Shown: positions 3,091 through 18,226 of the stretch, piece after piece | Layout: each line of letters starts with the position of its first letter | Numbering within the stretch: the first letter of the stretch is position 1 | Virus record (IMG/VR): IMGVR_UViG_3300020119_000045 | Span: 1 to 36,260 of that record | Length of the DNA stretch: 36,260 nucleotides | DNA from: a virus | Strand: one strand, 5' to 3' | Translations under genes and position numbers: made by a program | Notes under the pieces: generated by a model | The model's database searches: none | Told to the model about the DNA's origin: nothing | Seen by the model: the letters and a program-made list of their open reading frames with translations, nothing else

Positions 3091-4347
3091 TCAGCGGGCG
3101 CCCACCGCTACCACGGTCATCCATGATGGGATGCGGGCGAGGTATCGGCCCGCGTTCGGGTTGGCCCCGACGATGACCGCCACGCCGTCAGGCTCGACCC
3201 ATGGCCATGGCGTCTCACAGTCTGTGATGACCACGACCGTCCGAGCGCCGTCAGCGATGGCCCGGGCGATCCCGGCGCTCATATCGGTCCCGCCGCTGCC
3301 GCGGATGGTGTCCGGCAGGTGCCGCCCGATCAGGGTCGCCGCGTGGTTGCAAGCGTAGAATGTCGCGTTGGCCGCCCGGGCTAGGAACGTGCCAGCCGCC
3401 CGGGCCATCTCTAGGTCGAAATCGCTAATGCTGCCGGAGGTGTCAATCACCACGGCAACGTCCGGGCGCTCACCAGTCCACCGCGGGAGCACGGCCCCAC
3501 CCATATCGCGATAGTCGCGACGACCGGGCCATACCCAGCGGGTGGGCGCGGTGTGTGGCGCAACGCTCCGGCCGACGACCGACGCCAGCGCGGTGTACCA
3601 GCCCGCCCGGTCGATTTGCAATTCCGTCTCGGCCCACTCGCGCAGGTCATCCGAGACGCCAGTACCACGACCGGACCCGAGAACCGCCCGCGCGGCTTCG
3701 GCCCGGGTCGATGCACCATCGTCGGCGCCCTTGCCAGCGCCGGGATTGGCCGCGTCGCCAGCCTCGTGCGGTTGCGTCGGCCCACCGGCCGCACTGCCGC
3801 ACTGCGCGGTGCCAGCGCCGGGCTTGCCACCGCCGCCACCGCCTGATCCGTCACCCTCGCCCGATCCGCTGCCGTCACCCTCGGGCTTCGGCGCTTCGTT
3901 CGGCGCGGTGGCGGCGTAGTAGACCTCGGCCGTTCGACCGCGCGGCATCCCGATGGACTCGGGATAGACCGCACCGTCCGGCAGGTTGGCCAGCCGTTGA
4001 TTGATTTCGGCATCGCCCGCGATGTTGAACCGGCCCGGGTCGCGATCCTCGCACCGGTCGAAATGCCGCCGCAAGAGGTGTTCGACCTCGTGAACGAGCA
4101 CCGCTCCGGCCTGCTCGGCAGTCAACCCGGCAAGGAACGTCGGATTGTAATGCGTCACCCAGTCCTTGGACGTGGCCATGGTCGGTACGTTCGGGTCGGC
4201 CGTGATCCGCAATCCAGCGATGGCACTGCGGTAGTAGGGATGGCCGCGGAACGCCTCTTCCATCGCGGCCGACATGGCCGGGTCGGGATGGCGCACCACG
4301 TTGCCGTAGGTGTCCATGTAGGGATAACTGCGGTCGGTCGGTGCCAT
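3091..4347 (-). CDS. VWA-domain protein with N-terminal HExxH metallopeptidase-like domain
   Basis: The 418-residue protein belongs by layout to the DUF2201 class: a zincin-like N-terminal part with HEVEH at residues 86-90 and a downstream GDAEIN (about 111-116) that supplies the usual third ligand; a long Gly/Ser/Pro linker (about 155-215); and a C-terminal von Willebrand A-like domain with a complete MIDAS (DTSGS near 301, GGTD near 351, TDC near 374). Such proteins are partners of MoxR AAA+ ATPases, here encoded immediately upstream with a one-base TGATG overlap. Metal-dependent protein binding or cleavage is the family expectation. Whether the peptidase centre is active is unknown. The substrate is not visible. 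Confidence 0.85.
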   Translation of the reverse strand: MAPTDRSYPYMDTYGNVVRHPDPAMSAAMEEAFRGHPYYRSAIAGLRITADPNVPTMATSKDWVTHYNPTFLAGLTAEQAGAVLVHEVEHLLRRHFDRCEDRDPGRFNIAGDAEINQRLANLPDGAVYPESIGMPRGRTAEVYYAATAPNEAPKPEGDGSGSGEGDGSGGGGGGKPGAGTAQCGSAAGGPTQPHEAGDAANPGAGKGADDGASTRAEAARAVLGSGRGTGVSDDLREWAETELQIDRAGWYTALASVVGRSVAPHTAPTRWVWPGRRDYRDMGGAVLPRWTGERPDVAVVIDTSGSISDFDLEMARAAGTFLARAANATFYACNHAATLIGRHLPDTIRGSGGTDMSAGIARAIADGARTVVVITDCETPWPWVEPDGVAVIVGANPNAGRYLARIPSWMTVVAVGAR

Positions 4348-5438
4348 CAGCGGGCCGCCGTTCGGACGCCGATACCGGCATCGGCCAGTGCCTTGCGCAA
4401 CGGTGCAATGCCTTGAATGTGGCCGCGCTCGGCCAACCGGGTGGCCGCGTTCGCGACCAGTGCCGCGTCAACGGCCACCGCCCCGATCAGGAGAGCAATC
4501 GTCCGATCCCGGGTGGCCTCGGTGGCCGCCTCGACCAGTGCGGAGAGCGCCGTAGACATGGCATCGGGTCGGTCGGGGATGGCCGCCGTACCGTCCAGCA
4601 TCGCCTCGACGGTCGGCATATCCCGCTCCCGCGCCCACCGGGCGAACGACTCCGCCACGTTGGCCCCGACAGTCAGGGCGAGCACGGCCGGGTTGCCGCC
4701 CGCGGCATCCATCAGCGCGGCACCGTTCGACCATGACCGCGGAGACGGCCAAGCGGCGGATCGTGCTCGGGTGTCTCGCGGCACGCTGAGCAGGTCCTCC
4801 GGCACCGCCTCGATGTAGCCAGCGATCAATTTCAATGCTGGGGAGGACTGGCTCTTGGCCCATGCCAACCACTCGGCCGTAGGTGCGGGCCATTCGATAT
4901 GCGCCCATCGGTTGGCCATGGCCGGATCAAGCGCCCATCCGCCCACCGCGAGGTCCGGCGGGTTGGCCGCCGCGACGATGCGAGTCTCGGCCGGGAGAGT
5001 CCAGCCATCCGCGCGGCGTGACTGGACGACAGACAGCAGGGTCGCGACGACCGCGGGCGGCAGTGTCGTGACCTCATCCACGAATAGCCATGTCTGCTCC
5101 CCGCGGTCGTGCGCTTCATTGATCCGCCGCGCCCATCCCGGGATCGTCGGTTCGGTGCGCTTGCGATCCTCCGATGGCATCGGAATGCCGAGGATGGTCG
5201 TCGGGTCCTGCGCTGAAGCAATGAGCACTTCAAGCGTTGCGCCAGCCTCGGCCGCCATCGCCTCGATGATCGCGGTCTTGGCCGTGCCGGGCGCACCCAT
5301 CAAGAGCGCCGAGCGGTTGGCCGCCAGTGCCACCCGGAGGAGGTCGGTTGCGCTCATGGTCTGGTCATTCATTGCAATTGATCCTCCGCCCGTCGCCGGG
5401 CCGTATCCGTTGGGGTTGGCATTCAGGGCGGTGGTCAT
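4347..5438 (-). CDS. MoxR-family AAA+ ATPase
   Basis: The product (363 aa) shows Walker A GAPGTAKT at 48-55, Walker B LFVDE at 118-122, sensor-1 Asn in AAANPP near 159 and an NRW arginine-finger-type motif near 176-178, in the compact MoxR order. MoxR ATPases act as chaperones that insert or remodel metal- or VWA-containing partners, and the VWA gene follows directly. I start at ATG 5438-5436 because it overlaps the stop of the zinc-finger gene (ATGA). An internal ATG at 5372-5370, inside a perfect ATTGCAAT motif, is an alternative giving 341 residues. Function in the phage cycle is unknown. Confidence 0.85.
   Translation of the reverse strand: MTTALNANPNGYGPATGGGSIAMNDQTMSATDLLRVALAANRSALLMGAPGTAKTAIIEAMAAEAGATLEVLIASAQDPTTILGIPMPSEDRKRTEPTIPGWARRINEAHDRGEQTWLFVDEVTTLPPAVVATLLSVVQSRRADGWTLPAETRIVAAANPPDLAVGGWALDPAMANRWAHIEWPAPTAEWLAWAKSQSSPALKLIAGYIEAVPEDLLSVPRDTRARSAAWPSPRSWSNGAALMDAAGGNPAVLALTVGANVAESFARWARERDMPTVEAMLDGTAAIPDRPDAMSTALSALVEAATEATRDRTIALLIGAVAVDAALVANAATRLAERGHIQGIAPLRKALADAGIGVRTAAR
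5371..5378. repeat. ATTGCAAT motif at an internal ATG of the MoxR gene
   Basis: The minus strand reads CAATTGCAATG, so the motif ends in the ATG of MNDQTMSATD, an alternative start of the ATPase. Confidence 0.8.
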
Positions 5439-5824
5439 GCCGCCACTGCCGCCCGGCTGTACTTGCGCCGTGCCGCCGGAGCGAACGTGCCGCCATCGGC
5501 GCAGACCGGCAGACCGCTTCGGGCGATCCATCGGGCCGTGGTCCGAATGACCATGCCGCAGGTCGGGCAAGCCAATTTGACCTGCCGGTCGGGCTGGGAG
5601 TGCTCGGGATGACTGGCACCGTGGCGGCATCCCGGGATGCCACACATGTGGGCCGTGCTCGGCAGCGAAGCCGCCGCCGTAGTGCTCGGCACGTTCGCCG
5701 GGAGTGCATCGGTCATGTCGTCGGCCACGTCGGCCGCGGTCATCACCTCGGCATCCATTGCAATGGCGCCCATCTCCGCCGCCGCTACCAAATCGGCCAC
5801 CGTGGCCCGCTTGTGCTGTGGCAT
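5435..5824 (-). CDS. Zinc-finger protein heading the MoxR-VWA operon, 129 aa
   Basis: The 129-residue protein begins MPQHKRATVADL with a strong GGAGG seven bases before ATG 5824-5822. Its first half is helical and acidic. The second half contains two sets of metal ligands: C-x4-C with nearby histidines (HMCGIPGCRHGASHPEH) and CxxC with a later Cys (ACPTCGMVIR...LPVCADG), consistent with a two-zinc finger. It is the first gene after the leftward promoter at 5915 and overlaps the ATPase start (ATGA). It could be an adaptor that brings targets to the ATPase; this is inference from context. One perfect ATTGCAAT lies at 5755-5762. Confidence 0.75.
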   Translation of the reverse strand: MPQHKRATVADLVAAAEMGAIAMDAEVMTAADVADDMTDALPANVPSTTAAASLPSTAHMCGIPGCRHGASHPEHSQPDRQVKLACPTCGMVIRTTARWIARSGLPVCADGGTFAPAARRKYSRAAVAA

Positions 5825-5915: not shown

Positions 5916-6068
5916 TTGCTGTCGTGCGATTGGGCTGTGTCCGACCGCATTCCAGCACGGCCGCAGGGCGCTCGGATCGGCCCGCGCGGCGGGTTGCGTC
6001 GATTGGCCCGCGGGCGGCAGGGTGGCGGGTCTTTCGGGTCGCGAGGCGTGCGGGCGGACAGTCCCCAC

Positions 6069-6118
6069 CCCATTTCGCCCCAAAAGGCCCGAAAAGGACC
6101 CATTTCGGCCCAAAAAGT
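6069..6118. repeat. Two direct repeats 30 bases apart
   Basis: CCCATTTCGSCCCMAAAAG occurs starting at 6069 and at 6099, exactly 30 bases apart (CATTTCG at 6071 and 6101). The A-rich ends fall on the same helical face, as in iterons. Confidence 0.7.
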
Positions 6119-6221
6119 GACGGGTATGACGGGTCTGACCCTTTTCCAGACAAAGTTCGAGCTGAAATTCTCTATGCGAGAAAAAGGTTGGAAAAGGGGT
6201 CAAACGTGTCATACCCGTCAC
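6117..6221. repeat. Long inverted repeat, about 31-bp arms, 42-base loop
   Basis: The left arm 6117-6147 starts GTGACGGGTATGAC and ends GACCCTTTTCC; the right arm 6190-6221 is its near-exact reverse complement, with a few mismatches in the middle. The loop 6148-6189 is relatively A/T-rich. The outer 14 bases recur at 6321-6334. Confidence 0.8.
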
Positions 6222-6286
6222 TGTTGCGTCTTCACGCAAATAGCACTGGTCGAGACCCTGTTGAAAGGTGTAGCGAAGAGGTGCCC

Positions 6287-6315
6287 TTGACACGAGTTGC
6301 ACGATGTCGCATAGT
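6287..6315 (+). promoter_or_regulatory. Rightward early promoter
   Basis: TTGACA (6287-6292) and CATAGT (6310-6315) are separated by 17 bases. Transcription should start near 6322, inside the third GTGACGGGTAYGAC copy, and reads into the replication/anti-defence operon at 6386. Confidence 0.55.
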
Positions 6316-6320
6316 TCAGG

Positions 6321-6334
6321 GTGACGGGTACGAC
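6321..6334 (+). promoter_or_regulatory. Candidate operator at the rightward start site
   Basis: GTGACGGGTACGAC differs in one base from the outer arms of the inverted repeat at 6117-6130 and 6208-6221. Its position, starting five bases after the -10 box, is that of a repressor operator. Confidence 0.45.
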
Positions 6335-6385
6335 CCCCGACGACTGGTCGAGAACGCATCTGGGGCCAAGGAGGCCCACACGACA

Positions 6386-6865
6386 ATGGGTTTCAACATC
6401 CCCGCTCCCGTGGCCGGAGGCGACATCCCCGAGATTGAGGATGGCCTCTACAAGGCGCGCTTCGATGACATCAACATGCGCGTGGTCGAGTCCTTCATCA
6501 CCGAGAAGGACAAGTTCGGCAAGCCGGACGACGGCACCCGGTTCGACTTCCTCGCAACCATCCTCGATGACGAGGGGGAGCCCGCGCTGAAGAACGCCGA
6601 GGACCCGGACTCGGGCGAGATGCAGCTCCGGCAGGCGAAGAGCGTCAAGTCGTTCAGCTCCGACGACCGGGCGAACAGCTACTTCTACCTGAAGGGCATC
6701 CTGACCCCGTCCGAGTTCGCCGCGTGGCTCGCGAGCACGGCCGAGAACCCGGTTGACCTGTCCGGTGTCGCGGGCCGCGTCGTCAACGTGCAGGTCTCGC
6801 ACAACGAGAAGGGCTGGCCGCAAATCGAGGCGTTCCTCGGGCCGGTCGGGAAGAAGGGCAAGTGA
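6386..6865 (+). CDS. Hypothetical early protein, 159 aa, OB-fold-like replication accessory candidate
   Basis: ATG 6386 (MGFNIPAPVAGGD) is preceded by AAGGAGG. The 159-residue product opens with IEDGLYKARFDDI, then RFDFLATILDDEG and ends with VNVQVSHNEKGWPQIEAFLGP, an alternating strand pattern like the small phage proteins annotated as single-stranded-DNA-binding or replication accessory factors. I see no catalytic motif. It is the first gene of the rightward operon and just precedes the Acb2-like gene with a one-base TGATG overlap. Calling it an OB-fold protein is inference from its strand pattern and place; an unrelated DUF is equally possible. Confidence 0.6.
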   Translation: MGFNIPAPVAGGDIPEIEDGLYKARFDDINMRVVESFITEKDKFGKPDDGTRFDFLATILDDEGEPALKNAEDPDSGEMQLRQAKSVKSFSSDDRANSYFYLKGILTPSEFAAWLASTAENPVDLSGVAGRVVNVQVSHNEKGWPQIEAFLGPVGKKGK

Positions 6866-7149
6866 TGTCCCCTCAGTCAATCTCGGTGCCCGAGGTCGAG
6901 CGCCGCTTCGACTACCACGCCCCGAGCGGCGTGGCCAAGGACATGCACGCGCAGGTCCGAGCCGAGGCCAAGCAGTTCGCCGGGACCGTCCTCTTCGGAC
7001 TGCCCGAGGGCCGCGAGAAATCGCTCGCCTTCACGGCATTCGAGGAGGCCACCTTCTGGGCGCACGCGGCCATCGCGCGTGAGCCGGACCTGCACGCTGC
7101 ACCCGAGGTCACGCACGTCCACACGGACGAGTGCGGGAAGCTGGAGTAG
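6865..7149 (+). CDS. Acb2/Tad1-type cyclic-nucleotide sponge (anti-CBASS/anti-Thoeris family)
   Basis: The 94-residue protein carries the hallmark helical hairpin of the Acb2/Tad1 family: RFDYHAPSG at about residues 11-19, then a helix, then the nearly invariant GREKSLAFTAFEEATFWAHA block followed by AIAR (about residues 46-69). Proteins of this family form oligomers that sequester cyclic oligonucleotide or cADPR-type signals and so silence CBASS and/or Thoeris immunity. After the hairpin comes an unusual His/Glu tail (EVTHVHTDECGKLE) that may bind metal. The ATG at 6865 shares a base with the upstream TGA; a GTG at 6862 is an alternative. Family membership is recognised from the motif; ligand preference cannot be told. 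Confidence 0.82.
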   Translation: MSPQSISVPEVERRFDYHAPSGVAKDMHAQVRAEAKQFAGTVLFGLPEGREKSLAFTAFEEATFWAHAAIAREPDLHAAPEVTHVHTDECGKLE

Positions 7150-7152
7150 CCG

Positions 7153-7347
7153 ATGCGAGTCAAGGTCACGGTTGTCTTCACCGAGACGGCCACCATCGAC
7201 ATCGGGGACCTGAAGCCGAACCTCATCAGGCAGTTGCTTGAAGAGAACGACGGCGCGCTGGCCAAGGACTGGGGGCTCTACGACGTAGCGACCGTGGAGC
7301 GCACCATCGAGTCCGTGGATGTGGCCGAGACGAAGGCCAAGGCGTAG
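7153..7347 (+). CDS. Hypothetical protein, 64 aa
   Basis: The 64-residue product starts MRVKVTVVFTETATIDI, a beta hairpin-like opening, and continues with a helix (LKPNLIRQLLEEN) and an acidic, Lys/Ala tail. It follows the Acb2-like gene by three bases (TAG-CCG-ATG) and precedes the HTH gene in the same way, so it is co-transcribed with them. Shape and length resemble small ferredoxin-like or antitoxin-like folds, but I recognise no family. Confidence 0.65.
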   Translation: MRVKVTVVFTETATIDIGDLKPNLIRQLLEENDGALAKDWGLYDVATVERTIESVDVAETKAKA

Positions 7348-7350
7348 CCC

Positions 7351-7539
7351 ATGGGACCCCAGCGCAAGCTGACCGTGGCAGAGGCAGCCGCGACCGCGAA
7401 GTGCCACCCGGAGACCGTCCGGCGGGCCGTTCGCGCGAAGGAGCTGCTGGCCACGCGTGAGCCCACGAAGCGAGGACGTGGTTTCGTCATCCTCGCGGCC
7501 GACCTCTCAGCTTGGCTGGAGAAACGTCGGCGCAACTAG
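7351..7539 (+). CDS. Excisionase/MerR-like helix-turn-helix protein, 62 aa
   Basis: The 62 residues form one winged-HTH unit of the excisionase (HTH_17) type: KLTVAEAAATAKCHPETVRRAVRAKEL gives the two helices of the HTH in two blocks, followed by the wing (PTKRGRGFVILAADL) and a last helix SAWLEKRRR. Such proteins are excisionases or small transcriptional regulators. No integrase is seen in this window, so an Xis role is uncertain; controlling the early operon or the repeat region upstream is equally likely. It is the last gene before a structured gap and the prim-pol gene. Confidence 0.75.
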   Translation: MGPQRKLTVAEAAATAKCHPETVRRAVRAKELLATREPTKRGRGFVILAADLSAWLEKRRRN

Positions 7540-7716
7540 ATGGCGCGGAGTGCGGCACGGGGGAGTGATCGCCCCTAGACCACGCTCCGCGACCTTGGCA
7601 GGTGTTCGGGTCTAGCCCCGGCGCATCCCTGCCGTCCCCGGACCCGGTCACTGGAATGTAGCGGCGGGAGCTTTGCGCCAGCCAATGCGCCAGCCTCGGG
7701 TCCGGGGCACGATCTG
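7540..7716 (+). other. Structured non-coding gap before the prim-pol gene
   Basis: No supported gene is seen. The stretch can form several hairpins: CGCGGAG with CTCCGCG, GGCAGG with CCTGCC, and CGGGTC with GACCCG. It ends with a direct repeat TGCGCCAGCC at 7674-7683 and 7686-7695 (12-base period). It may be an RNA leader of the prim-pol message or an initiator site. Confidence 0.4.
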
Positions 7717-8592
7717 ATGACAACCCCCCTTCAGGACGCCGCCGTCGAGTACGTCTCGGCCGGGCTGCGCATCCTCGCCCTCACCGGCAAGAAGCCCAAC
7801 GCCCGCGTCCATGGCGAGTCGTGGAGCTGGGAGGACTCGTTTTGGGCGGATGAGCCGCTGACAGCCGAGTCGATGACCGCCATCGAGCACGCCTTCAGCG
7901 CCGAGCGCGACACGACCGGCATTGCAATTCTGATCCCCGAGGACTTCCTCGTGGCGGACGTGGACACCGACGCGGCCGCGCAGCTCCTCCTCGACCTCGG
8001 CTTCGAGGCGCACCCGGAGAGCGTCGTGGCCAAGACGAAGAACGGCCTGCACATCTGGTTCTGGTGCCCCGGCGCCAACCGCAATCGCTGGCTGGGGGGA
8101 CGGACGCTGCTCTTCAAGGGGCTCGGCGGCTACGTCGTCGCACCGCCGTCCGTCCACCTCGATGAGCACGGCGTCATCGACGGCCACTACGAGTGGGTGA
8201 CGCCGCTGGTGCAGGACGGCGTCCGCTACATGCCGGACCCCATCCCGGCCGCGGCCATGGAGCGGTTCACGCTTGACGATCAGTTCGCGGAGCTGAAGCC
8301 CGACAAGGGCTCGATGACCACCTTTACCCTGACCCCGGCCGAGGGCGTGCCATGGTGGCAGTGGGAGAAGGTGTGGAATTACGGGCTGGAGGGACTGGAG
8401 CGGGCCATCGAGACGGCCGAGGACGGCAATCAGAACAACATCATCCACTGGGCCGCTTTGACGGCGAGGGAGGAGGGCGTACCATACGAGGTCGCAAAGG
8501 AGCTACTGCTGGCCGCCGCAATTCGAGGAAATCATCCCGCCAATCGAGCCCGCGACACGATCCGGGGCGCGTACAAGGCCAAGCGTGGGTAA
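7717..8592 (+). CDS. Bifunctional DNA primase/polymerase (prim-pol, AEP superfamily)
   Basis: The 291-residue protein matches the prim-pol N-terminal domain found in phages and plasmids: an opening helix and GLRILALTGKKP substrate strand (16-27), the catalytic DVD at 81-83 in FLVADVDTD, TKNGLH at 107-112 (the basic/His strand) and GYVVAPPSVH at 138-147. It should synthesise primers and possibly extend them at the phage fork. The C-terminal third (about 200-291) is helical and likely contacts the helicase. The SF3 helicase gene overlaps its 3' end by eight bases. The start ATGACAAC resembles the dispersed motif variant; one perfect ATTGCAAT lies at 7921-7928. Confidence 0.9.
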   Translation: MTTPLQDAAVEYVSAGLRILALTGKKPNARVHGESWSWEDSFWADEPLTAESMTAIEHAFSAERDTTGIAILIPEDFLVADVDTDAAAQLLLDLGFEAHPESVVAKTKNGLHIWFWCPGANRNRWLGGRTLLFKGLGGYVVAPPSVHLDEHGVIDGHYEWVTPLVQDGVRYMPDPIPAAAMERFTLDDQFAELKPDKGSMTTFTLTPAEGVPWWQWEKVWNYGLEGLERAIETAEDGNQNNIIHWAALTAREEGVPYEVAKELLLAAAIRGNHPANRARDTIRGAYKAKRG

Positions 8593-10024
8593 GCCCGCGA
8601 AGGTAGCCGAGTCGCCGGAGCCCGCCAAGATCGAGTTCGCGATGCACCCGAGCACGCGCGACGACTACTTCGCGTGGCTCCTGTCGCAACCCGAACCGCT
8701 CGGGCTGGGGGACCGGGTCCGGTTCGACCACTCGACCGGGCTCTGGCACGTCTGGGACGCCATCCGCTGGGCGCCCGACCGGACCACCAAGGTCTACGAC
8801 CTGATCCGCGACAAGATGATGCTGTGGCTCTCGGACACCGAGATGGTCAAGGACAAGGACGACCTGAAGCTGTACGGCGTGCTCTTCGACGCCGGGAAGA
8901 AGGCGTCGGTCCTGAAGATGCTCGCCTCGTTCCCGAAGATTGCAATGACCGGGGACGAGTGGGACAAGGACCCGGAGCTGATGGGCTTCGACAACGGCGT
9001 GCTGAACCTGCGGACGCTGGTGCTCGACACGCACCCGAGCCCCGATCTGCTCATCAGCCGGACGACGGGCGTGGACTGGGACCCGACCGCCGACGCCAGC
9101 GCGTTCATCAAGTTCGTGGACGACATCATGTCCAACGACGCCGACCTGCGGGACTACGTCCTGCGCGTCCTCGGGTACTCGATGCTCGGCACCAACCGCG
9201 AACAGAAGTTCTGGATGTGGGTCGGGTCCGGGCAGAACGGCAAGGGCGTCCTCGCCCGGGTCGTCGCGGAGGCGCTGGGCGATTACGCCGCGACGCCGCC
9301 GGACACGCTCTACATGCGGACCAAGTACGGCGCCGCCAGCAGCGACAAGCCCCGGCCGGAGCTATTGAAATTGGAGGGCTCGCGGTTCGCCTACATGTCG
9401 GAGCCGCAGGGCGGGCAGTTCAACGAAGAGATGCTGAAGGCCCACACCGGCAACGACTTCATCGAGGCCCGGACGCTCCACTCCAAGACCTTCAAGACCT
9501 TCCAGCCGACACACAAGATCGTCTTCCTCACCAACAACCCGCCCCGCACCGACGACGTGGGGCCGTCCATGCAGCGCCGTGTCCGCATCGTCTGGTTCGA
9601 GCAGGACTACCGGGCAGAGGACCGGAACGACCGGGGGCTGGAGGACCGACTGAAGGAGCCCGCCAACCTGCAGGGCGCGCTCCGGGTGATGGCGGTGGCC
9701 GCTCAGGAGTACCTGCTGCAGGGGATGACCGAGCCCCAGAAGGTGATCGACTGGTCGCAGGAGTACATCGAGGAAAACGACCCCATCTCGTCGTTCATCG
9801 CTGAGTCTTGCGTGCAGGACCCGCGGACGCAGGAGTCGGCCGGTCAGATGTGGAAGGCGTTTGAGGGGTGGGCCGAGCGGTCGGGGGTCGAGAAGATGAC
9901 GCAGACCGGCTTCGGGCTGGCCATGGGCCGGAAGTTCGAGCGCAAGCACCGCAGCACCGGCTGGTACTACCTCGGCGTCCGGCTGAAGAACTCGGCCGAC
10001 ATCCTGCTGGAGGGGACGGAGTAG
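8585..10024 (+). CDS. SF3 replicative helicase, phage/plasmid primase (P4/D5) C-terminal family
   Basis: The 479-residue protein has the D5/P4 layout: a helical N-terminal D5-type region (about 60-190, with FDNGVLNLRT at 135-144), Walker A GSGQNGKG at 214-221, Walker B-like FAYMSEP near 268-274, and the SF3 motif C FLTNNPP at 314-320 with the downstream arginines QRRVRIVWF. It should form a hexamer that unwinds DNA at the origin, working with the prim-pol. Start is GTG 8585 inside the end of the prim-pol frame. The C-terminal part (400-479) is a winged-helix-like DNA-binding tail (KMTQTGFGLAMGRKFERKH). Confidence 0.92.
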   Translation: MGKPAKVAESPEPAKIEFAMHPSTRDDYFAWLLSQPEPLGLGDRVRFDHSTGLWHVWDAIRWAPDRTTKVYDLIRDKMMLWLSDTEMVKDKDDLKLYGVLFDAGKKASVLKMLASFPKIAMTGDEWDKDPELMGFDNGVLNLRTLVLDTHPSPDLLISRTTGVDWDPTADASAFIKFVDDIMSNDADLRDYVLRVLGYSMLGTNREQKFWMWVGSGQNGKGVLARVVAEALGDYAATPPDTLYMRTKYGAASSDKPRPELLKLEGSRFAYMSEPQGGQFNEEMLKAHTGNDFIEARTLHSKTFKTFQPTHKIVFLTNNPPRTDDVGPSMQRRVRIVWFEQDYRAEDRNDRGLEDRLKEPANLQGALRVMAVAAQEYLLQGMTEPQKVIDWSQEYIEENDPISSFIAESCVQDPRTQESAGQMWKAFEGWAERSGVEKMTQTGFGLAMGRKFERKHRSTGWYYLGVRLKNSADILLEGTE

Positions 10025-10093
10025 TGGAGCGCCCGAGAGTCGAACTCGGTCGGGGAATGTCTAGCCATACCCGTGAGCGAACCTGCGCGCCCC
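10025..10093 (-). tRNA. tRNA-like element (degenerate tRNA or tRNA 3'-half)
   Basis: On the minus strand the 3' side is convincing: a T-arm with 5-bp stem CCGAG/CTCGG and seven-base loop TTCGACT, followed by GCGCTCC that pairs with GGGGCGC at the 5' end (7 bp, one G-U). The middle is only about 35 bases and forms a hairpin GGGTATG/CATTCCC around GCTAGA, with no U33 before a usable anticodon and no normal D-arm. It may be a decayed tRNA, a tRNA-derived attachment site, or a bidirectional terminator between the converging genes. Confidence 0.35.
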
Positions 10094-10098
10094 ACCAA

Positions 10099-10179
10099 TC
10101 ACGCGGGGGGCTCGTAGAGCCAGAGCCAGATCGCCGCGAGGACGATCAGCACCGACACCACGAGCCCCACGGCGTGCAT
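10099..10179 (-). CDS. Single-pass membrane microprotein, 26 aa
   Basis: ATG 10179-10177 opens 26 codons: a short head (MHAVG), a hydrophobic helix LVVSVLIVLAAIWLWLY and an EPPA tail. It begins three bases after the stop of the regulator gene on the same strand (TGA-ACC-ATG) and is thus likely translated from its mRNA. It resembles in design the microproteins at 565-648 and 1597-1710, though their sequences differ. Function unknown. Confidence 0.5.
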   Translation of the reverse strand: MHAVGLVVSVLIVLAAIWLWLYEPPA

Positions 10180-10182
10180 GGT

Positions 10183-10773
10183 TCAGGCGAACTTGGCCGT
10201 CAGGGCCTTGATGGCGGCCTTGACCTTCTGGCGCTCGCCCACCTTGGGCTTGCTCTCCAGCCACCGCTGGTAGCTGTTGCCGAGGCGGACCATCTCCGCC
10301 ATCAGGCGGTCGGTCGGGGTCTCGGGCACGCGGGTGAACGCGCTGCCCGCGTCGGGCGCGACCTCGTGGCGGACGCGACGGATGAGTGCGGCCGTGACCG
10401 GCTTGTCTCCGGCCGCCTCTTCGACGGCCTGCCAGACGACCTTGACCTGTTCGGGGTCATCGAGCACGGCCAGCTCTCGGGCCTGCGCCTCGTTGGTCAG
10501 GTCCTCGGGGTCCCCGAGGGTCGCGACCACCTTGGCCGAGTCCATGAGCTGGTACGCCCTCGACCGGGGCATCCCCCAGCGCTCGGCGCAGTACGCCTCG
10601 AACGTGGCGTGCGTGTCGCGGTAGAGCCGCGAGTCGCGGATTTCGAGGAGGGCGGTGCCGACCTCGCGGAAGGTCTGGAGCCCGGCCGCGATGCGCCTCT
10701 CCAGTTGGCCGAGCTTGCGCTGCTCGCCCTTGCTGAGGAGGTCGCTGGTCGGGATGGGAGTCGCCAGTGCCAT
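10183..10773 (-). CDS. DNA-binding-type phage regulator (DUF3102/ParB-like helical), 196 aa
   Basis: The 196-residue, all-helical protein contains the block RDSRLYRDTHATFEAYCAER, WGMPRSRAYQLMDSAKVV (about residues 46-82), typical of phage and plasmid proteins annotated as DUF3102 or ParB-like regulators, in which RSRAYQL is the recognition helix of an HTH. A second Arg/Lys-rich region closes the protein (ERQKVKAAIKALTAKF). AAAGGAG lies eight bases before ATG 10773-10771. It is transcribed leftward, against the flanking replication and structural genes, behind a palindromic operator (10860-10886), the usual setting of an autoregulated repressor or partition-type protein. The role is inference. 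Confidence 0.65.
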   Translation of the reverse strand: MALATPIPTSDLLSKGEQRKLGQLERRIAAGLQTFREVGTALLEIRDSRLYRDTHATFEAYCAERWGMPRSRAYQLMDSAKVVATLGDPEDLTNEAQARELAVLDDPEQVKVVWQAVEEAAGDKPVTAALIRRVRHEVAPDAGSAFTRVPETPTDRLMAEMVRLGNSYQRWLESKPKVGERQKVKAAIKALTAKFA

Positions 10774-10799
10774 GAACGGGTCTCCTTTCGGGAGCTAGA

Positions 10800-10842
10800 G
10801 CCCCGAGTTGGCGCCGAGAGGGGCACCTCCGGTACTCGGGGC
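10800..10842 (-). promoter_or_regulatory. Leader hairpin of the regulator mRNA
   Basis: GCCCCGAGT (10800-10808) and ACTCGGGGC (10834-10842) are perfect 9-base inverted arms with a 25-base loop, lying between the promoter and ATG 10773. It could attenuate or stabilise the regulator transcript. A 17-codon frame inside it is probably meaningless, since its ATG lies before the expected start site. Confidence 0.5.
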
Positions 10843-10849
10843 TGCCATT

Positions 10850-10886
10850 ACTCTACAAATGTTGACATTGCTCCACAATATCAACA
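10850..10886 (-). promoter_or_regulatory. Regulator promoter overlapped by a 27-bp palindromic operator
   Basis: An inverted repeat TGTTGACATTG (10860-10870), loop CTCCA, CAATATCAACA (10876-10886) matches in 10 of 11 positions per arm. On the minus strand TTGTGG (10878-10873) and TAGAGT (10855-10850) with a 17-base spacer form a promoter buried in it. Binding of a dimeric repressor here would block the promoter. Confidence 0.6.
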
Positions 10887-10943
10887 GGCCGCGGGCGCCT
10901 TGCAGGCGCCTAACAGTGGTTTGGACTACTGGAGTAGGCCAAG

Positions 10944-11432
10944 TTGAGCCTCGAATTTCCCCTCCGGCGGTCGGTTGCAATGCTCGCTGAGGACCCGGCG
11001 GCCGCTCGCGAGGCGTTCCATGCTGCCGCCGTGGCCGCCGCGCCGGTCTGCCCGTCCTGCCACAAGCCGGTGAAGCACCGGAAGGGGCTGGCGTGGTGCG
11101 AGGACCATCAGATGTCGGAAGCGACGCTGCAGGATCGGGTCGTCGGGCGCGCCAAGCGGCGTGGCTGGGACGTGAAGCACGTCGGCAAGGGCCTGACGGG
11201 CGCGGACGGGGTGTGGGTCTCGACCGCCAAGAACTTCCCCGACCTCTTCATGCTCCACGAGGGGCAGCGCCGGGTGCTCGCCATCGAGTTGAAGCGAGAA
11301 GAGGGCACCTTCGAGCCCGGGCAGCTCGAATATCTCCAGCTCCTCAACCTCTGCGGCATCCCGGCCGTCGTCATCCGGCCCTCGCAGTTGCGCGACGGCA
11401 CGGTGAATGCGATCCTTGGGGTTCAGCAATGA
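10944..11432 (+). CDS. VRR-NUC nuclease with N-terminal zinc finger
   Basis: The 162-residue protein carries an N-terminal CPSCHKP...WCEDHQ zinc-binding unit (about 36-55) and a PD-(D/E)xK nuclease core of the VRR-NUC type: FPDLFMLHEG near 94-103 with the catalytic Asp, then AIELKREEG near 113-121 with E-x-K, and QLEYLQLLNLCGIPAVVI, the helix-strand that closes the fold. Phage VRR-NUC proteins are Holliday-junction or flap nucleases and often lie near the terminase. The TTG at 10944 has GGAG nine bases upstream; the ATG at 10980, within GTTGCAAT, would give 150 residues. Its stop overlaps the next ATG (ATGA). Confidence 0.85.
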   Translation: MSLEFPLRRSVAMLAEDPAAAREAFHAAAVAAAPVCPSCHKPVKHRKGLAWCEDHQMSEATLQDRVVGRAKRRGWDVKHVGKGLTGADGVWVSTAKNFPDLFMLHEGQRRVLAIELKREEGTFEPGQLEYLQLLNLCGIPAVVIRPSQLRDGTVNAILGVQQ

Positions 11433-11989
11433 CAATTGACGCCAAGTGCCTCGTCTGCAAGAACGCCGACCGCCGCCGCCTCATTGAACTGGGGTGGAAC
11501 GGTGGCATGGCGGCCGCCACCATCGCCAACGTGCTCGACATCAAGGGGCTGGCGGCCACGACGATCATCCGCCACCTGAAGCAGCACGCGGATGGCGACG
11601 GCAACCGTCGCGCCGTGGAGGTCGAGCCCGAGCTGCCCGCCCGCGAGCGCGTGATCGCCCTCCAGAAGCTCCAGTTGGACGAGGTCGAGCGGCGGATCGG
11701 GCTCGCCCGGTCGCGTGCCGACCTGCTGAACAAGGAGCACGAGAACGACCCCGACTGGCATCCCGCCGACTGGTCGGACTTCTTCGATGTCCTCGGCAAG
11801 GACGGCCAGAGCGCCATCGGGTCGATCCTGAAGGCGCAGGGGCTCACCGACAAGCGCGACATGAAGCGCGACGACCTGAAGCTGGGCTTGTTCGAGGCCA
11901 TGGCCAAGAGCGGTCTCGCGCCCAAGTCCATCTCGGGCGGGGCGCCCGCGCTGCCGGACCCGGACGAGGAGCTGGATGTCGAAGATTGA
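11429..11989 (+). CDS. Putative terminase small subunit
   Basis: The 186-residue protein starts MTIDAKCLVCKNADRRRLIE with a CxxC pair, then GGMAAATIANVLDI and ATTIIRHLKQHA (about 24-52), the HTH arrangement seen in phage small-terminase-type proteins. A central coiled coil (ERVIALQKLQLDEVERRIGLA) would drive ring assembly, and the C-terminus is acidic (DPDEELDVED), suited to contact the large subunit. The large terminase frame overlaps its end by 14 bases. Family assignment rests on this order and on HTH-like features; it would select the packaging site. The start ATGACAAT is itself a copy of the motif variant. Confidence 0.7.
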   Translation: MTIDAKCLVCKNADRRRLIELGWNGGMAAATIANVLDIKGLAATTIIRHLKQHADGDGNRRAVEVEPELPARERVIALQKLQLDEVERRIGLARSRADLLNKEHENDPDWHPADWSDFFDVLGKDGQSAIGSILKAQGLTDKRDMKRDDLKLGLFEAMAKSGLAPKSISGGAPALPDPDEELDVED

Positions 11990-13622
11990 CTGGGTAGCCG
12001 AGTTCGAGCGCTGCCGCTGGGACCCCGTGCGCTGGGCGCGCGTCTTCCTCGGCATCTCCGTCCATCCGGGCCAGAAGCGGATGATGGAGGCGTACATCAA
12101 GCGCACCGACTCGCGCTGGCGCGCCCTGTACTACTGGGTCATGGTGGCCGCGGGCAACCGCGCCGGGAAGACGCTGGCCCTCGCCATCATCATCATGCAC
12201 TCGTGCGTCTACCGCATCGGTCTGGAGCCGCCGAAGTCGAACGACCCGGTGGCGCTGAAGCGGTTTGGCACATTGAAATATGACTGGTGGCACTTCGCCG
12301 TGGAGCAGGCGCCGTCCGAGCAGGTCTTCAGTGAGATTGTCAACATCCTCGGCGGCACGCACCCGGCCCAGAAGGCGGGCTGCCCGTGGGCGGACGCGGT
12401 CGGCGGGGCGCAGCGCCTCGCGAAGGCCACCGAGACGCCGGGTCAGGAGTGGACCAACGGCGGCCCGAAGGAGCGCGGCGAGTACGCGTGGATTGTCTTC
12501 GCGCCGGAGCTGGGCGGGGCGCAGGTGCACTTCCGCTCGACCAAGGCGAAGGCCCTGTCCGCTATCGGCATGAACATGCACGGCCTGAGCTTCGATGAGG
12601 CGGGCCTGCAGGAGAGCCCGACCCTCCGCTACCTGCTGGAGGAGGTCATGCACGCCCGGCGGCTCTCGACCGGTGGACAGTTCCTCATCATCTCGACCCC
12701 GAGCGCCGACACGAGCACCGAGTTCGAGGACCTGTGGTATACGGGCGACCCGGAAGACCCGTTCCGCGACCCGCGACGGTTCTCAATGCAGATGAGCACC
12801 CGCTACAACATCGGGTACGGCATCGACCGCGAGGCGTTCGACGCCCTGATCCTGCACCAGCCGCCCGACTGGATTAGGCAGAACATCGACGGCGAGTTCA
12901 TTCAGGCGTCGGGCGTCTGGTTCAACGCCAACTCCGTCCGAGACGCGTTCAAGGACGATCTGCCTGAGCAGGCCGAGCCCGGCGGGGCAGGGCACACCTA
13001 CGCCCACGCCCTCGACCCGGGCCTGAAGGACAAGTGCTGGTCGATGGTCTGCGAGATGGACGACAAGGGCATCCTCACGGGCGTGTCGCTCGACCGTCAG
13101 GAGGGCCAGCAGACCACCCGCGGCATCGTCGCCCTTGGCGCTCGGGACCACAAACGCTACGCGGCGGGCGGCGGCGAGGTGGAGACCGGCGTGGACCACA
13201 CCGCGCTGGGCGGGCAGATGTTCAAGGAGCTGCTGGAGGAGTCGATCCCGGCCGTCCGCACCATCGAGTTCGGTGGCGTCATCAAGACCAAGCGCCAGCT
13301 CCTCTCCGACCTGCGGACGGCGTTCGATGAGGGTCGCATCCGCCTCCCCGCGTCGGGCTACTGGCAGGAGGCGCTACGCCAGTGCCTCAATTACAAATTG
13401 GCCGACCGGAAGCTGGAGCAGGACCTCGTGATGTGCCTCGCGATCATCGTGAAGGTCGCTCGTGCCCTGCCGATGCCAGGCCAAGCGCAGGTCGCGCCCT
13501 TTGTCTACGGTGCGCCGGATCAGGGCCGCGCGATGACGGCGGCCGAGCGCGTGCTCGCCGGTATGGCCCTCGGGAACGGCCCGGGCGAGACCACTGTTGC
13601 ATCCTTCAAGCGGCCGACGTAG
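11976..13622 (+). CDS. Terminase large subunit
   Basis: The 548-residue protein has the two-domain layout of phage packaging motors: ATPase with Walker A GNRAGKT at 60-66, Walker B LSFDEA at 204-209 and a coupling motif IISTPS near 238-243; then an RNase-H-like nuclease with an Asp in AHALDPGLKD near 347 and further acidic residues downstream (DLRTAFDEGRI, LVMCLAIIVKVA). It translocates DNA into the procapsid through the portal encoded two genes on and cuts the concatemer. The start ATG overlaps the small-subunit gene. One ATTGAAAT copy lies at 12272-12279. Confidence 0.93.
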   Translation: MSKIDWVAEFERCRWDPVRWARVFLGISVHPGQKRMMEAYIKRTDSRWRALYYWVMVAAGNRAGKTLALAIIIMHSCVYRIGLEPPKSNDPVALKRFGTLKYDWWHFAVEQAPSEQVFSEIVNILGGTHPAQKAGCPWADAVGGAQRLAKATETPGQEWTNGGPKERGEYAWIVFAPELGGAQVHFRSTKAKALSAIGMNMHGLSFDEAGLQESPTLRYLLEEVMHARRLSTGGQFLIISTPSADTSTEFEDLWYTGDPEDPFRDPRRFSMQMSTRYNIGYGIDREAFDALILHQPPDWIRQNIDGEFIQASGVWFNANSVRDAFKDDLPEQAEPGGAGHTYAHALDPGLKDKCWSMVCEMDDKGILTGVSLDRQEGQQTTRGIVALGARDHKRYAAGGGEVETGVDHTALGGQMFKELLEESIPAVRTIEFGGVIKTKRQLLSDLRTAFDEGRIRLPASGYWQEALRQCLNYKLADRKLEQDLVMCLAIIVKVARALPMPGQAQVAPFVYGAPDQGRAMTAAERVLAGMALGNGPGETTVASFKRPT

Positions 13623-13625
13623 ACT
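13597..13625 (+). promoter_or_regulatory. Candidate promoter built on the terminase stop codon
   Basis: TTGCAT (13597-13602) and TAGACT (13620-13625) have a 17-base spacer; the TAG is the terminase stop. The GTG start of the next gene is nine bases past the -10 box, and no Shine-Dalgarno is visible, so the message would be nearly leaderless. Confidence 0.4.
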
Positions 13626-13634
13626 GGCGCTACC

Positions 13635-13820
13635 GTGAGCAGCACCAACAGGCGTGCCCGAGAGGCGCAGTACCGTCAGTCCGACGCCGGACGTATGGCT
13701 CGCAAGATGTATAACGCCCAGCCCGAGGTGCGCCAGCGCAAGGCCATCAAGCGCGCTATCAAGCACCATCAGACGCCACCGACCGTGACCTACGGGCCGG
13801 GGAAGGCGCTGGGAGGCTGA
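13635..13820 (+). CDS. Small basic protein, 61 aa
   Basis: GTG 13635 opens 61 codons for a very basic, mostly helical peptide (STNRRAREAQYRQSDAGRM, then EVRQRKAIKRAIKHHQ). Its TGA shares a base with the portal ATG at 13820. It sits between large terminase and portal, where some phages carry small DNA-binding or HNH-type proteins, but it has no HNH residues. It could bind the packaged DNA or the portal. No family recognised. Confidence 0.6.
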   Translation: MSSTNRRAREAQYRQSDAGRMARKMYNAQPEVRQRKAIKRAIKHHQTPPTVTYGPGKALGG

Positions 13821-15802
13821 TGGCGCAGGAACCCAAATACGGCAACCTGACCCTCGGTCTGGCCCTCGAACAAGGCGACCATTCGATGGAGCTACAGCGC
13901 CAGCTCCAGACGCGGATCATGGGCATCATGCCCGAGCACTCGCTCTTCCGAGACGAGGCGGAGCGCAACGACAAGCTGTTCTACGCGACCGGCTACAGCA
14001 CGTTCGGCGCCGACATCTGGCTGGACGACCCGAACCTCAACGTGGACGGGCGCTCGCACATCTCGCTGAACACGCCCGCGGTCTACGTGGAGGTCCCAGC
14101 CGCGCTGCAGGCGCTCGAACCCATCGAGAACATGGTGGCCATCGAGGACTCCGAGACCGCCCGCGACGACGCGAACGCCATGGAGCGCATCCGCGAGGCG
14201 TGGCGCGTGGAGGAGCTGTGGCAGTTGAAGCGCCACAAGGCCGCCACCGTCAAGGGGCTCTACGGCCGCACCGCGTCCTTCATCTACCCCGACATGGACG
14301 AGCAGCGGGTGTGCGCCGACGTGGTCATCAACCCGCGCAACCTCTACATGGGGTTCCAAGATGACAATTACGACGAGCTGGAGTGGGCCGCGCAGGTCAC
14401 GCTGGTCGATCCGATGACCGTGATGGAGCGCTACAGCGTCACCCTCGAAGTCAAGTCGCTGGAGGACGGCACCGTCGTGCCGTGGGTGGTCGCGATGGGC
14501 GACGGCGCCAGCGTGGACATCCCTCGGCCCGAGGTCAACTGGGGTCCGATGCGCGTGGAGGTCTGGGACTACTGGTATCGCAAGGTCGGGAAGCCCGGCA
14601 AGCGCGGCACCGAGGCCAAGATGGAGACGTGGAACGTCATCGTCGTGGGCAACGAGGTCGTCCGCAACGCCAAGTACGCCTACTACGACGGCGAAATCCC
14701 ATACGTTCCCCTGTTCAACACGTTCGTTCCGGGCGTGCCGACCGGCCGCAGCGACCTCCACGACATGGAGCAGCTCATCCGCGAGAAGATGACGCGCCTG
14801 ACGGCCGGGGCGCAGATGATCCAGAAGGCCACGGCGGGCGACTACTGGCAGCTCACGGGCGAGAACGCGCCCGCCCGCGGCACGGTCAACGCCAAGCCGA
14901 TGCTGAACCAGACGGTGAGCCCGGGCGCGGGCAACCGCTACGAGGCCATCGCCCCGTTCATCGCGGAATTCCAATTGGAGCAGTTCCTCGGCCGCCTCGA
15001 CCGCGAGATGGCGGTCATCTCGGGCCTCAACGACCTGCTGCTGGGGCTCGCCCCGAGCGCGGTCCTGAACAGCTCGAAGGCCATCAACGCGCTGGTCGCG
15101 AACTACGAGTCGCGGCTCTCGATGCGTCGCCTCATGTTCTACGAGTGGGATCGGAAGACGTGGGAGCTGACCTGCAAGGTCTGGGCCAACATGCGGAATG
15201 ACAATGGCCGGTTCATCAAGGGCATCGTGGCCCACGGCCTGCCGCGTCTCGACATCATCGACCCGTCCCTCAGCCCGCGGGATGAGATGGAGACGGCGAC
15301 GCGAGCCGCCAACCTCGTCAACGCCCGGCTCTGGTCACAGGCCCGAGGCATGGACGCGGTCGGCGTGGACGACCCCGAGCAGGAGCAGAACATCATCCGC
15401 CGCGAGAGCACGGACGCGACCCTGTGGCCCGACCGGGTGAACCTGATGGTCCAGCTCATGTCGGCCCTCAACGCCGCCGGGGCGCAGGCCCCGCAGGGCG
15501 TGCAGCAGCAGGTGGCCGGGCAGGAGCAGTCCGGCGCGGCCGCCCTCCAGTCCGCGCTGGGCGCTGGGACTCCGGCCGCTCTGCCGAACGGTGCTGGCGC
15601 GGCGGCGCTTGGCGGGCAGGGCGTGCAGCCGGACGTGACCGGCGGCCAGTCCTCGCCGTTCGCTCAGGGTCCGCAGGGCGCCTCGGCCCAGCCATTCGCC
15701 GCAGCGCAGAACGGGCCGCAGGCCACGCAGGTCCAGTCCATGATCCAAGGCGGACAGTTGAAGGGCCGCATCCTCAACAACGTGAAGTACGGGCGGAAGT
15801 AG
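13820..15802 (+). CDS. Portal protein
   Basis: At 660 residues and in the position after terminase, this is the dodecameric portal. The core (about 20-520) shows the mixed helix/strand pattern of phage portals, with a wing-type segment (VVINPRNLYMGFQDDNYDEL near 170-190), MTRLTAGAQMIQ, and the long stem helix region SGLNDLLLGLAPSAVLNSSKAINALVANYESR in two blocks (about 399-432). The C-terminal 110 residues are Gln/Gly/Ala-rich, low complexity, and could form a flexible barrel or crown extension. GGGAGG lies close upstream of the ATG. It bears motif copies at 14361, 14968 and 15198. Confidence 0.88.
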   Translation: MAQEPKYGNLTLGLALEQGDHSMELQRQLQTRIMGIMPEHSLFRDEAERNDKLFYATGYSTFGADIWLDDPNLNVDGRSHISLNTPAVYVEVPAALQALEPIENMVAIEDSETARDDANAMERIREAWRVEELWQLKRHKAATVKGLYGRTASFIYPDMDEQRVCADVVINPRNLYMGFQDDNYDELEWAAQVTLVDPMTVMERYSVTLEVKSLEDGTVVPWVVAMGDGASVDIPRPEVNWGPMRVEVWDYWYRKVGKPGKRGTEAKMETWNVIVVGNEVVRNAKYAYYDGEIPYVPLFNTFVPGVPTGRSDLHDMEQLIREKMTRLTAGAQMIQKATAGDYWQLTGENAPARGTVNAKPMLNQTVSPGAGNRYEAIAPFIAEFQLEQFLGRLDREMAVISGLNDLLLGLAPSAVLNSSKAINALVANYESRLSMRRLMFYEWDRKTWELTCKVWANMRNDNGRFIKGIVAHGLPRLDIIDPSLSPRDEMETATRAANLVNARLWSQARGMDAVGVDDPEQEQNIIRRESTDATLWPDRVNLMVQLMSALNAAGAQAPQGVQQQVAGQEQSGAAALQSALGAGTPAALPNGAGAAALGGQGVQPDVTGGQSSPFAQGPQGASAQPFAAAQNGPQATQVQSMIQGGQLKGRILNNVKYGRK

Positions 15803-15805
15803 CCG

Positions 15806-18226
15806 ATGGCACGCAGCCGACGCGGTAGCTTCGGGCTCCGTCCCCGCACCGCCCCCAGCCTGACCAACACCATCGTCGCCCTCTCGCGCGAGTACGTCGC
15901 GAAGCGCGATCAGCTCATCATGGACGCGTGGCGCAACGGCGGCACCTTCGAGGGCAAGCCGGTCACGGACGCCATGGTGCTTGCCTACTGGAAGGGCCGC
16001 GAGCAGGGGCTCGACCCCAGCGACCCGGTCACGGAGGGCATCAAGGACCAGATCATGCAGCTCCACTACGCCATCGAACAGTCGAAGGCCGACGTGCTCC
16101 ACGCGCAGGGCAAGCTGTCCGACATGGCGTACGCGCAGTTCTTCCTCCGCTGGGCGAAGAAGATACCCGCCAGCAGCGAGTTCTACCGGACCCTCCAGAA
16201 GGACGCCGCGCAGCTCATCGAGTCCGCCAAGGCCAAGGGTCGGGCGGGCGCCGAGGCCGCGAAGGTCAAGGCGTTCAACGAGTTCGTGCAGACGACGCAG
16301 GCACAGCACATTGCAATTGGGGACGCCATGACGGCGGCCCTGTCCTACCTGTCCAAGGCCACGGGCATGAGCTACACCGCGAACGGCGACGAGCTGCTGC
16401 AGCTCCTCACGCAGAACGTCAAGGCGAACCCGGGCGAGTACCGGCAACTGCTGGACGCCATCAAGGCGGGCGACCCGAGCTGGGATGGCCAGCTCACCGA
16501 GAGCTACTTCAGCCACCACATCAACGACGCCGCGCAGGGCTACTCCGCCATCGCGGACAAGGCCAAGGCGGACGGCTACGTCTCGGCGTACGCGAGCGCG
16601 ACGAAGGGCATGTCCTCCATGTCCGAGTGGGCGCAGAACATCCGCGTGTGGCCGGTCGCGCAGTCCTACTCGCAGGCCGAGACCGCGTGGCTGAAGGTCA
16701 TGCAGGACCCGAACTCGTCCGAGATGGACAAGTTGGCCGCCTCACGCTCCTACAGCGAGACGCTGTCCCGACTGGCCGGGACGCCGGGGATCGACCCCGC
16801 CTCGAAGACGATGCTGACGGCTGACTCGTTGCGCCTCCTCGGGGAGGATGGCGGCGATGCGCCGTCGTTCGGCACCTCGATGCTCGGACGCCCGGGCGTG
16901 GACCCGCAGACGACCATGCAGATCGCCGCGTTTGCCCAGTTGAAGGCCGAGCGGGACGCGAACCCGCTGGCCTACGCCTACGCGCCCGTGGACAAGAACG
17001 GGCAGTTCGACGTGACCGGGCAGGGCGCGCTGGGCATCGTCCCGCTGGGGCAGGTGCCGTCCGGCGCGCAGGCCGTGATGGTCCCGGGCATCGACGGTCA
17101 CGCCGTGATGGCCATGGTGCCCATGCACAACATCTACGCGGTGAACCCCAGCGATCCGAACGGGCCGCGTCAGCCTGCCGGGTTCGTCATCAACTACAAC
17201 GTCGGCGGCCGCCAGATCACCATGTGGGGCTACGTTGACGCCAACAAGCAGCCGCACTGGTCGCTGACCTCGCCGCTGGTGGACGGCGCCACGACGACGA
17301 CCGACAGCAAGGGCGACATCACCGTGACGCCGCCCGCCCGCGTGGACCCGACCGCCCTTGCGCAGGCCATGGACCCGACCGGGAAGCTCAACATCGCGGC
17401 CGAAATCCAGCAGGGCGTCACGTCCGGCGAGACCGTTGACCGGAGCACCACCGGGACCGTCAAGACCATCAAGTGGACCTTCGCCAACGGCGCGCTCTCC
17501 GCGACGCAGACGGTCGAGACCGTGGACCCGATCACCCATCAAATCACTGGCTCCACGACGCAGCCCTTCTCCGTTAGCGGCTTTGGCGCATCGAGCGCCT
17601 TCAGCCAGTCTCGTCTGGCCGCGGGCGACGTGCCGGGTTCGACCTTCACCTCGCCGCTTCAGGCGTCCGTCAACGCGGCCGGGTACGCCCAGAGCCGCGA
17701 TCAGGTCGCGGTCTACGCGTCCGACCCGCAGTTCCAGCAGCAGTTCCTCGTGCAGACCATGAGCACGCTCGGGACGAGCAACCCGTACGACCCGCGGATC
17801 GCCTCGGCATGGAAGGCCGCGACGACCTCGAACATCGAGCCCGACGTGAAGACGCTCGCTGCGCAGCGCGCTGACCTCACGTTCCCCGGTGGCCACCCCG
17901 GCGAGGGCCGCCTGCAGGTCCCGTCGCTCACCTTCGGCTCGCCGGAGCTGCGCATCCCCGAGGCGCCGAACTCGGCCAATACGCGCGATTACAATGTCAA
18001 CGGGCAGTTCTCCGGCGTCGCTCCGCAGCTTACCCCGGCGCAGCCCGCACCGACCGCCCCGGCTCCGAGCGCGACCCCGGCCCCGGCGGTCACGCCGACG
18101 CCGACCGCCATCACGCCGACCGCCACGCCCGTCACGACGGTCACGCCCACGCCGGTCGTGGCGCCCATCAGCGTCGCGCCCGCGCCCGTCCCGGCGTACT
18201 CGAAGACAGGGCCGATCAAGCTGTGA
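15806..18226 (+). CDS. Large virion protein, 806 aa, unknown family
   Basis: The 806-residue product follows the portal by three bases with GGAAG upstream. The first 300 residues are helical (VALSREYVAKRDQLIMDAW; EQSKADVLHAQGKLSDMAY), the middle is beta-rich (QAVMVPGIDGHAVMAMVPM; NVGGRQITMWGYVD), and residues about 735-800 form a Pro/Thr/Ala/Val repeat tail (PTPTAITPTATPVTTVTPTP). I recognise no family. Its place before the scaffold and its partner of 1849 residues suggest an internal or ejected virion protein or a portal-associated factor, rather than a tape measure. One perfect ATTGCAAT lies at 16310-16317 and an ATTACAAT at 17988-17995. Confidence 0.75.
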   Translation: MARSRRGSFGLRPRTAPSLTNTIVALSREYVAKRDQLIMDAWRNGGTFEGKPVTDAMVLAYWKGREQGLDPSDPVTEGIKDQIMQLHYAIEQSKADVLHAQGKLSDMAYAQFFLRWAKKIPASSEFYRTLQKDAAQLIESAKAKGRAGAEAAKVKAFNEFVQTTQAQHIAIGDAMTAALSYLSKATGMSYTANGDELLQLLTQNVKANPGEYRQLLDAIKAGDPSWDGQLTESYFSHHINDAAQGYSAIADKAKADGYVSAYASATKGMSSMSEWAQNIRVWPVAQSYSQAETAWLKVMQDPNSSEMDKLAASRSYSETLSRLAGTPGIDPASKTMLTADSLRLLGEDGGDAPSFGTSMLGRPGVDPQTTMQIAAFAQLKAERDANPLAYAYAPVDKNGQFDVTGQGALGIVPLGQVPSGAQAVMVPGIDGHAVMAMVPMHNIYAVNPSDPNGPRQPAGFVINYNVGGRQITMWGYVDANKQPHWSLTSPLVDGATTTTDSKGDITVTPPARVDPTALAQAMDPTGKLNIAAEIQQGVTSGETVDRSTTGTVKTIKWTFANGALSATQTVETVDPITHQITGSTTQPFSVSGFGASSAFSQSRLAAGDVPGSTFTSPLQASVNAAGYAQSRDQVAVYASDPQFQQQFLVQTMSTLGTSNPYDPRIASAWKAATTSNIEPDVKTLAAQRADLTFPGGHPGEGRLQVPSLTFGSPELRIPEAPNSANTRDYNVNGQFSGVAPQLTPAQPAPTAPAPSATPAPAVTPTPTAITPTATPVTTVTPTPVVAPISVAPAPVPAYSKTGPIKL

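Follow-up and report, generated by a model that had tools for sequence, protein, structure and literature searches.

Acb2/Tad1 hairpin proteins are phage sponges for the cyclic nucleotides that serve bacterial immunity as alarm signals, and in the known Acb2 proteins the C-terminal tail adjoins the ligand pocket. Acb2 consists of a short helix and the hairpin only, whereas Tad1 carries an N-terminal four-stranded antiparallel beta domain ahead of the hairpin (PMC12043709). The cyclic-dinucleotide site of T4 Acb2 includes Tyr8 and Phe82; a Y8A substitution disrupts binding, and Phe82 stacks on the ligand, with the escaper mutation F82C abolishing activity (PMC12657218). Acb2 activity in turn triggers Panoptes (OptSE), which punishes phages that carry the sponge, a pressure that opposes the one exerted by CBASS (PMC12657218).

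The window analysed here, 36,260 bases in length, is the whole of an IMG/VR record and comes from an uncultivated tailed phage with genes for a terminase and a major head protein. No near DNA relative of positions 6000-16000 was found among 50,697 phage records, and none was found for the terminase protein. A genome scan with the hairpin protein described below likewise found no relative, and one with the D5 primase of the same phage recovered only 28% identical copies, in one Acidiferrales and one Chloroflexi MAG, which are too distant for a host to be called.

The acb2-like gene lies at 6865-7149 on the plus strand and encodes 94 amino acids followed by a stop codon, with its ATG overlapping the stop of the upstream gene as TGATG. 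Its third-position GC (0.90) is like that of the adjoining genes, and comparison with each of its two closest relatives gives a dN/dS below 1 (0.22/0.72 for L001; 0.34/0.99 for L002). On these two grounds the open reading frame is a real coding gene under purifying selection. The sequence features on which the earlier note had drawn, namely GREKSLAF, EEATFWAHAAIAR and the C-terminal end THVHTDECGKLE, are all present in the protein.

Assignment of the protein to the Acb2/Tad1 hairpin family is confirmed. Residues 16-72 match the Pfam model Acb2_Tad1_hairpin (PF24729) with an E-value of 2.3e-15; the score of 57 bits exceeds the cut-off of 27, and the match, which is far beyond chance, covers model positions 1-58 of 58. 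The same model recognises T4 Vs.4 (E 7.1e-20), and the 94-residue protein also matches phrog_1454 (E 1.7e-21). The nearest solved structure by sequence is 9ptq, deposited as 'Acb2 homolog 43', which is found with the single sequence at E 1.8e-4 and with a 13-member profile at E 9.3e-9; the weaker matches in the PDB that follow are to Tad1 (with the profile, 8kbb and 7uav). All 13 members of that alignment match PF24729 and no other Pfam family. Neither the hairpin protein nor either of the two small genes beside it had a match in PADLOC, and an NCBIfam search gave none. The family placement made in the earlier note is borne out by sequence profiles, by sequence matches to solved structures, by the predicted fold and by conserved binding-site residues. 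The family is already known, and the protein stands as a sound but unremarkable example of its kind.

The AlphaFold model of the protein (mean pLDDT 86.7) has helices at residues 8-15, 22-45, 50-71 and 74-77 and no strands. It is predicted to form a short helix and, after it, a hairpin of two antiparallel helices (residues 22-45 and 50-71), a block in which the pLDDT is about 95-97. In BFVD the leading named structure matches are all Acb2/Tad1 hairpin proteins. Comparison of the model with solved structures is supportive but not decisive, since a Foldseek search of the PDB returned no match with E below 1 and the VIA-align scores for Acb2 (7uq2, Z 5.4; 8h2x, Z 5.2; 8h2j, Z 5.1) are tied with those of unrelated helical hairpins, although 8h2x and 8h2j align at 20-21% identity, the highest among the PDB matches listed. 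It is thus the sequence profiles that carry the case for family membership.

The model also bears on which branch of the family the protein belongs to. The earlier note had paired CBASS and Thoeris as the defences to be countered; the link to Thoeris is weakened by the lack of the Tad1 beta domain: the model is all-helical, with only some 15 residues ahead of the hairpin domain, and so depicts a hairpin-only, Acb2-like rather than Tad1-like protein. A Tad1-type sponge for gcADPR, directed against Thoeris, could be argued from the hairpin and RE motif that the protein has in common with Tad1 (the profile matches to 8kbb and 7uav), but in a 94-residue protein of this build such a function is highly improbable. 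By analogy with relatives of the Acb2 plan, the likely ligands would be cyclic di- and trinucleotides of the CBASS type, and binding of gcADPR would be unlikely.

Alignment with the characterised proteins identifies candidate residues of the nucleotide site. Tyr8 of T4 Acb2 corresponds to Tyr11 of Acb2 from Pseudomonas phage p26, and T4 Lys23 to p26 Lys26, which presumably has a role in ligand binding; each pair is 15 residues apart. The counterparts in the window protein are Tyr17 (codon 6913-6915, plus strand), at the position of the cyclic-dinucleotide pocket tyrosine, and Arg32 (codon 6958-6960, plus strand), with identical spacing. Arg32 does not vary among the 68 distinct sequences compared, and 60 of these have Tyr or Phe at residue 17. 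The second pocket residue is conservatively basic, arginine here as against lysine in T4 and p26. Arg50, Leu54 and Thr57 are also invariant in the 68, Thr57 being the equivalent of T4 Thr68, while Arg50, Glu51 and Lys52 are invariant or nearly so in the subfamily marked by the motif GREKSLAFT and are absent from T4 Acb2. The position of T4 Phe82 is occupied by Ala71, and none of the 68 sequences has any residue other than Ala, Ser or Val there. Because of this replacement the predicted pocket is not identical to that of T4 Acb2, although p26 Acb2, a proven member, also has no Phe at the aligned position, and the aromatic is a detail of T4 Acb2 that is not shown to define the family. Loss of the Phe82 counterpart, together with the distinct and highly conserved GREKSLAFT motif, is one reason to consider that the hairpin has been turned to some other ligand or role, for instance a housekeeping nucleotide, or a protein or nucleic acid with which it would act in the replication module. 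This seems unlikely: 9ptq, deposited as an Acb2 homologue, has the same PEGREKS motif.

The acb2-like gene sits near the start of a DNA-replication operon, directly after and overlapping the first gene, at 6386-6865 (plus strand; 159 amino acids) whose product is probably an OB-fold single-stranded DNA-binding protein of the DUF669 type. The upstream protein is modelled at moderate confidence (mean pLDDT 69.6) with the order beta-beta-beta-alpha-alpha-beta-beta; its BFVD matches are to DUF669 and ssDNA-binding phage proteins, and its list of PDB matches is headed by PrgE, a plasmid protein solved with DNA, at a middling Z of 6.8 (rmsd 3.6 over 104 residues). This is most likely a replication protein. 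It is followed, beyond the acb2-like gene, by a 64-residue orphan open reading frame (7153-7347, plus strand; third-position GC 0.91), by an HTH_17/excisionase-like DNA-binding protein (7351-7539, plus strand; PF12728, E 1.3e-9), by a Prim-Pol primase (7717-8592, plus strand; PF09250, E 3e-14) and by a D5-type primase/helicase (8585-10024, plus strand; PF08706, E 1.7e-19; phrog_1156, E 5.9e-79). The orphan has no match in Pfam, PHROG or PADLOC and no relative in viral contigs. The earlier note had suggested that the two small neighbours be tested as anti-defence partners. For the upstream gene we rejected this role: it is conserved with the cassette, is OB-fold-like, resembles the DUF669 and ssDNA-binding proteins of phages, and is also present where acb2 is missing.

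Some 70 bp ahead of the first gene of the operon there is a sigma-70-like promoter site (6287-6315, plus strand), TTGACA-17-CATAGT, which agrees with the consensus at 10 of 12 positions; two such sites were observed in the scanned region against 0.2 expected. The acb2-like gene is therefore indeed the second after a rightward promoter, as had been described, the promoter itself being a consensus match only. The same region contains an imperfect inverted repeat of 33 nt (6113-6145/6193-6225), whose arms are 85% complementary and separated by 47 nt, as well as GTGACGGGTAYGAC in three exact copies, of which one, at 6321-6334, is just downstream of the -10 element of the operon promoter. With up to two mismatches GTGACGGGTAYGAC has six matches in the window against 0.65 expected. 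These elements could be repressor operators or an origin; the upstream region of L001 was found to have no such repeat. Facing the operon is a leftward gene pair (3091-5450, minus strand) that encodes a MoxR-like phage ATPase (phrog_1297) and a phrog_1314 protein, the latter labelled as an HNH endonuclease in PHROGs.

Related phages show that the acb2-like gene occupies a variable slot, bounded on the left by the ssDNA-binding-like gene (identity to the window copy 79% in L091, 60% in L092, 58% in L095, 58% in L001 and 30% in L002) and on the right by the HTH gene (67-78% identical in L001, L091, L092, L094, L095 and L096). In the window the slot holds acb2 and the orphan open reading frame, and in L001 acb2 alone. 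L095 has in its place (1016-1228) a divergent 70-residue hairpin protein whose match to PF24729 (E 2.2e-5) falls slightly short of the cut-off and in which the counterpart of Arg32 is retained. In L091, L092, L094 and L096 the slot is empty, with the HTH gene directly after the ssDNA-binding-like gene; these records are fragments, so that a sponge may lie elsewhere in those phages. L091 has the closest ssDNA-binding-like gene that was found, yet its slot is without acb2. Although the overlap with a probable ssDNA-binding gene inside a replication operon would suit a partner of the replication module, the same cassette exists without the gene in these four relatives, and it follows that replication does not need it. 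Since the slot is filled, empty or replaced among related phages, acb2 looks like an exchangeable accessory gene, acquired, lost or replaced under defence pressure. The slot might even be a dedicated swap site in this phage group for different hairpin sponges matched to the nucleotide signals of the host, perhaps with helpers such as the orphan at 7153 and with the tail retuning specificity, a proposal that we regard as speculative and unlikely. In any case, a slot that is empty in some of these phages, filled in others and differently occupied in L095 provides a natural comparison for the gain and loss of sponges in phages, one that could address the opposing pressures of CBASS and Panoptes on sponge carriage.

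Elsewhere in the family the surroundings of the gene are diverse. About 10 of 20 singly annotated flanking genes of relatives encode portal, terminase or head proteins, a share that is not unbiased because size partly guided the choice of genes, to the advantage of portal and terminase; others encode an exonuclease, primase/helicase, helicase and endolysin. Many GREKSLAFT members directly adjoin portal or terminase genes instead of lying in early modules (L009, L025, L028, L029, L044, L046, L048, L049, L061 and L078). In Mimi the family gene adjoins RecA, in LadyBird it adjoins ThyX and an HTH gene, in Bob it lies by a sigma factor and HicAB, and in Daredevil it is one in a row of small genes close to WhiB. 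The structural neighbours might be taken to indicate an accessory protein of virion assembly or packaging; however, the enzymes just listed, RecA, ThyX and the ssDNA-binding-like protein are neighbours too, and some 5 kb separate the window gene from the terminase, which belongs to a different module. Varied neighbourhoods argue against any fixed structural role, which we consider most improbable. They also mean that there is no single defining neighbour and that the early position, which the earlier note had presented as expected of such a protein, applies to the window gene but is no rule for the family. In one relative (L045:4001-4948) an Acb2-type hairpin is contained within a 315-residue open reading frame, the C-terminal 245 or so residues of which have no Pfam or PHROG match.

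The His/Cys-containing tail of the window protein (residues 81-94; 7105-7146, plus strand) is predicted to be disordered, with the pLDDT of this block falling to 66-54. In its two nearest relatives, L001 (75% identity) and L002 (64%), the protein stops shortly beyond the hairpin, and the tail is for this reason seen as a small, lineage-specific extension. The idea that it adds metal binding gains no support from these comparisons, and a conserved metal site was rejected as a family feature. A different Cys/His-rich tail (CNVPTGAPTGHRCQHIAGHGGLHRDG), which might bind metal, follows an Acb2-type hairpin in L081 (3995-4330).

Collectively, these results and the mechanism of well-studied relatives make it probable that the 94-residue protein is an Acb2-type sponge. 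The short N-terminal helix and two long antiparallel helices would assemble as a homohexamer, in which pockets between head-to-head protomers would bind cyclic dinucleotides via Tyr17 and Arg32. Cyclic trinucleotides would bind at the trimer interface, at either end of the central channel. Produced shortly after infection and in stoichiometric amounts, the protein would keep CBASS signals (or type III CRISPR cA3) away from their effectors without degrading them, and abortive infection would be prevented. The window phage thereby adds a divergent member from an uncultivated phage to the Acb2/Tad1 family, and the combination of a Tyr/basic pair with the GREKSLAFT motif marks a large subfamily for which we found little direct testing.

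Among the described systems, T4 Vs.4/Acb2 (7uq2, a structure with cGAMP) is recognised by the same Pfam hairpin model, and both it and p26 Acb2 (8h2j, 8h2x) resemble the window protein in size, in having a short N-terminal helix and two long helices, and in the identically spaced tyrosine and basic residue. Overall identity is nevertheless low (10-21% in structural alignment), T4 Phe82 is replaced by Ala71, and the window protein has in addition the GREKSLAFT motif and an extra C-terminal tail. The protein in 9ptq has in common with it an F-D-x-H motif, the basic residue and the PEGREKS motif, but has Thr at the position of Tyr17 and is without the tail. Tad1 (7uav, 8smd, 8kbb-8kbh) has a similar C-terminal hairpin with the motif RE..A.T..EE.MW and differs in the N-terminal beta-sheet domain that the window protein lacks. 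Finally, putative Acb2 proteins have been annotated in high-GC siphophages of Actinobacteria, such as gp57 of Microbacterium phage Statler (PMC13348362); compared with these annotated carriers, the window phage stands without a close relative in the phage collection.
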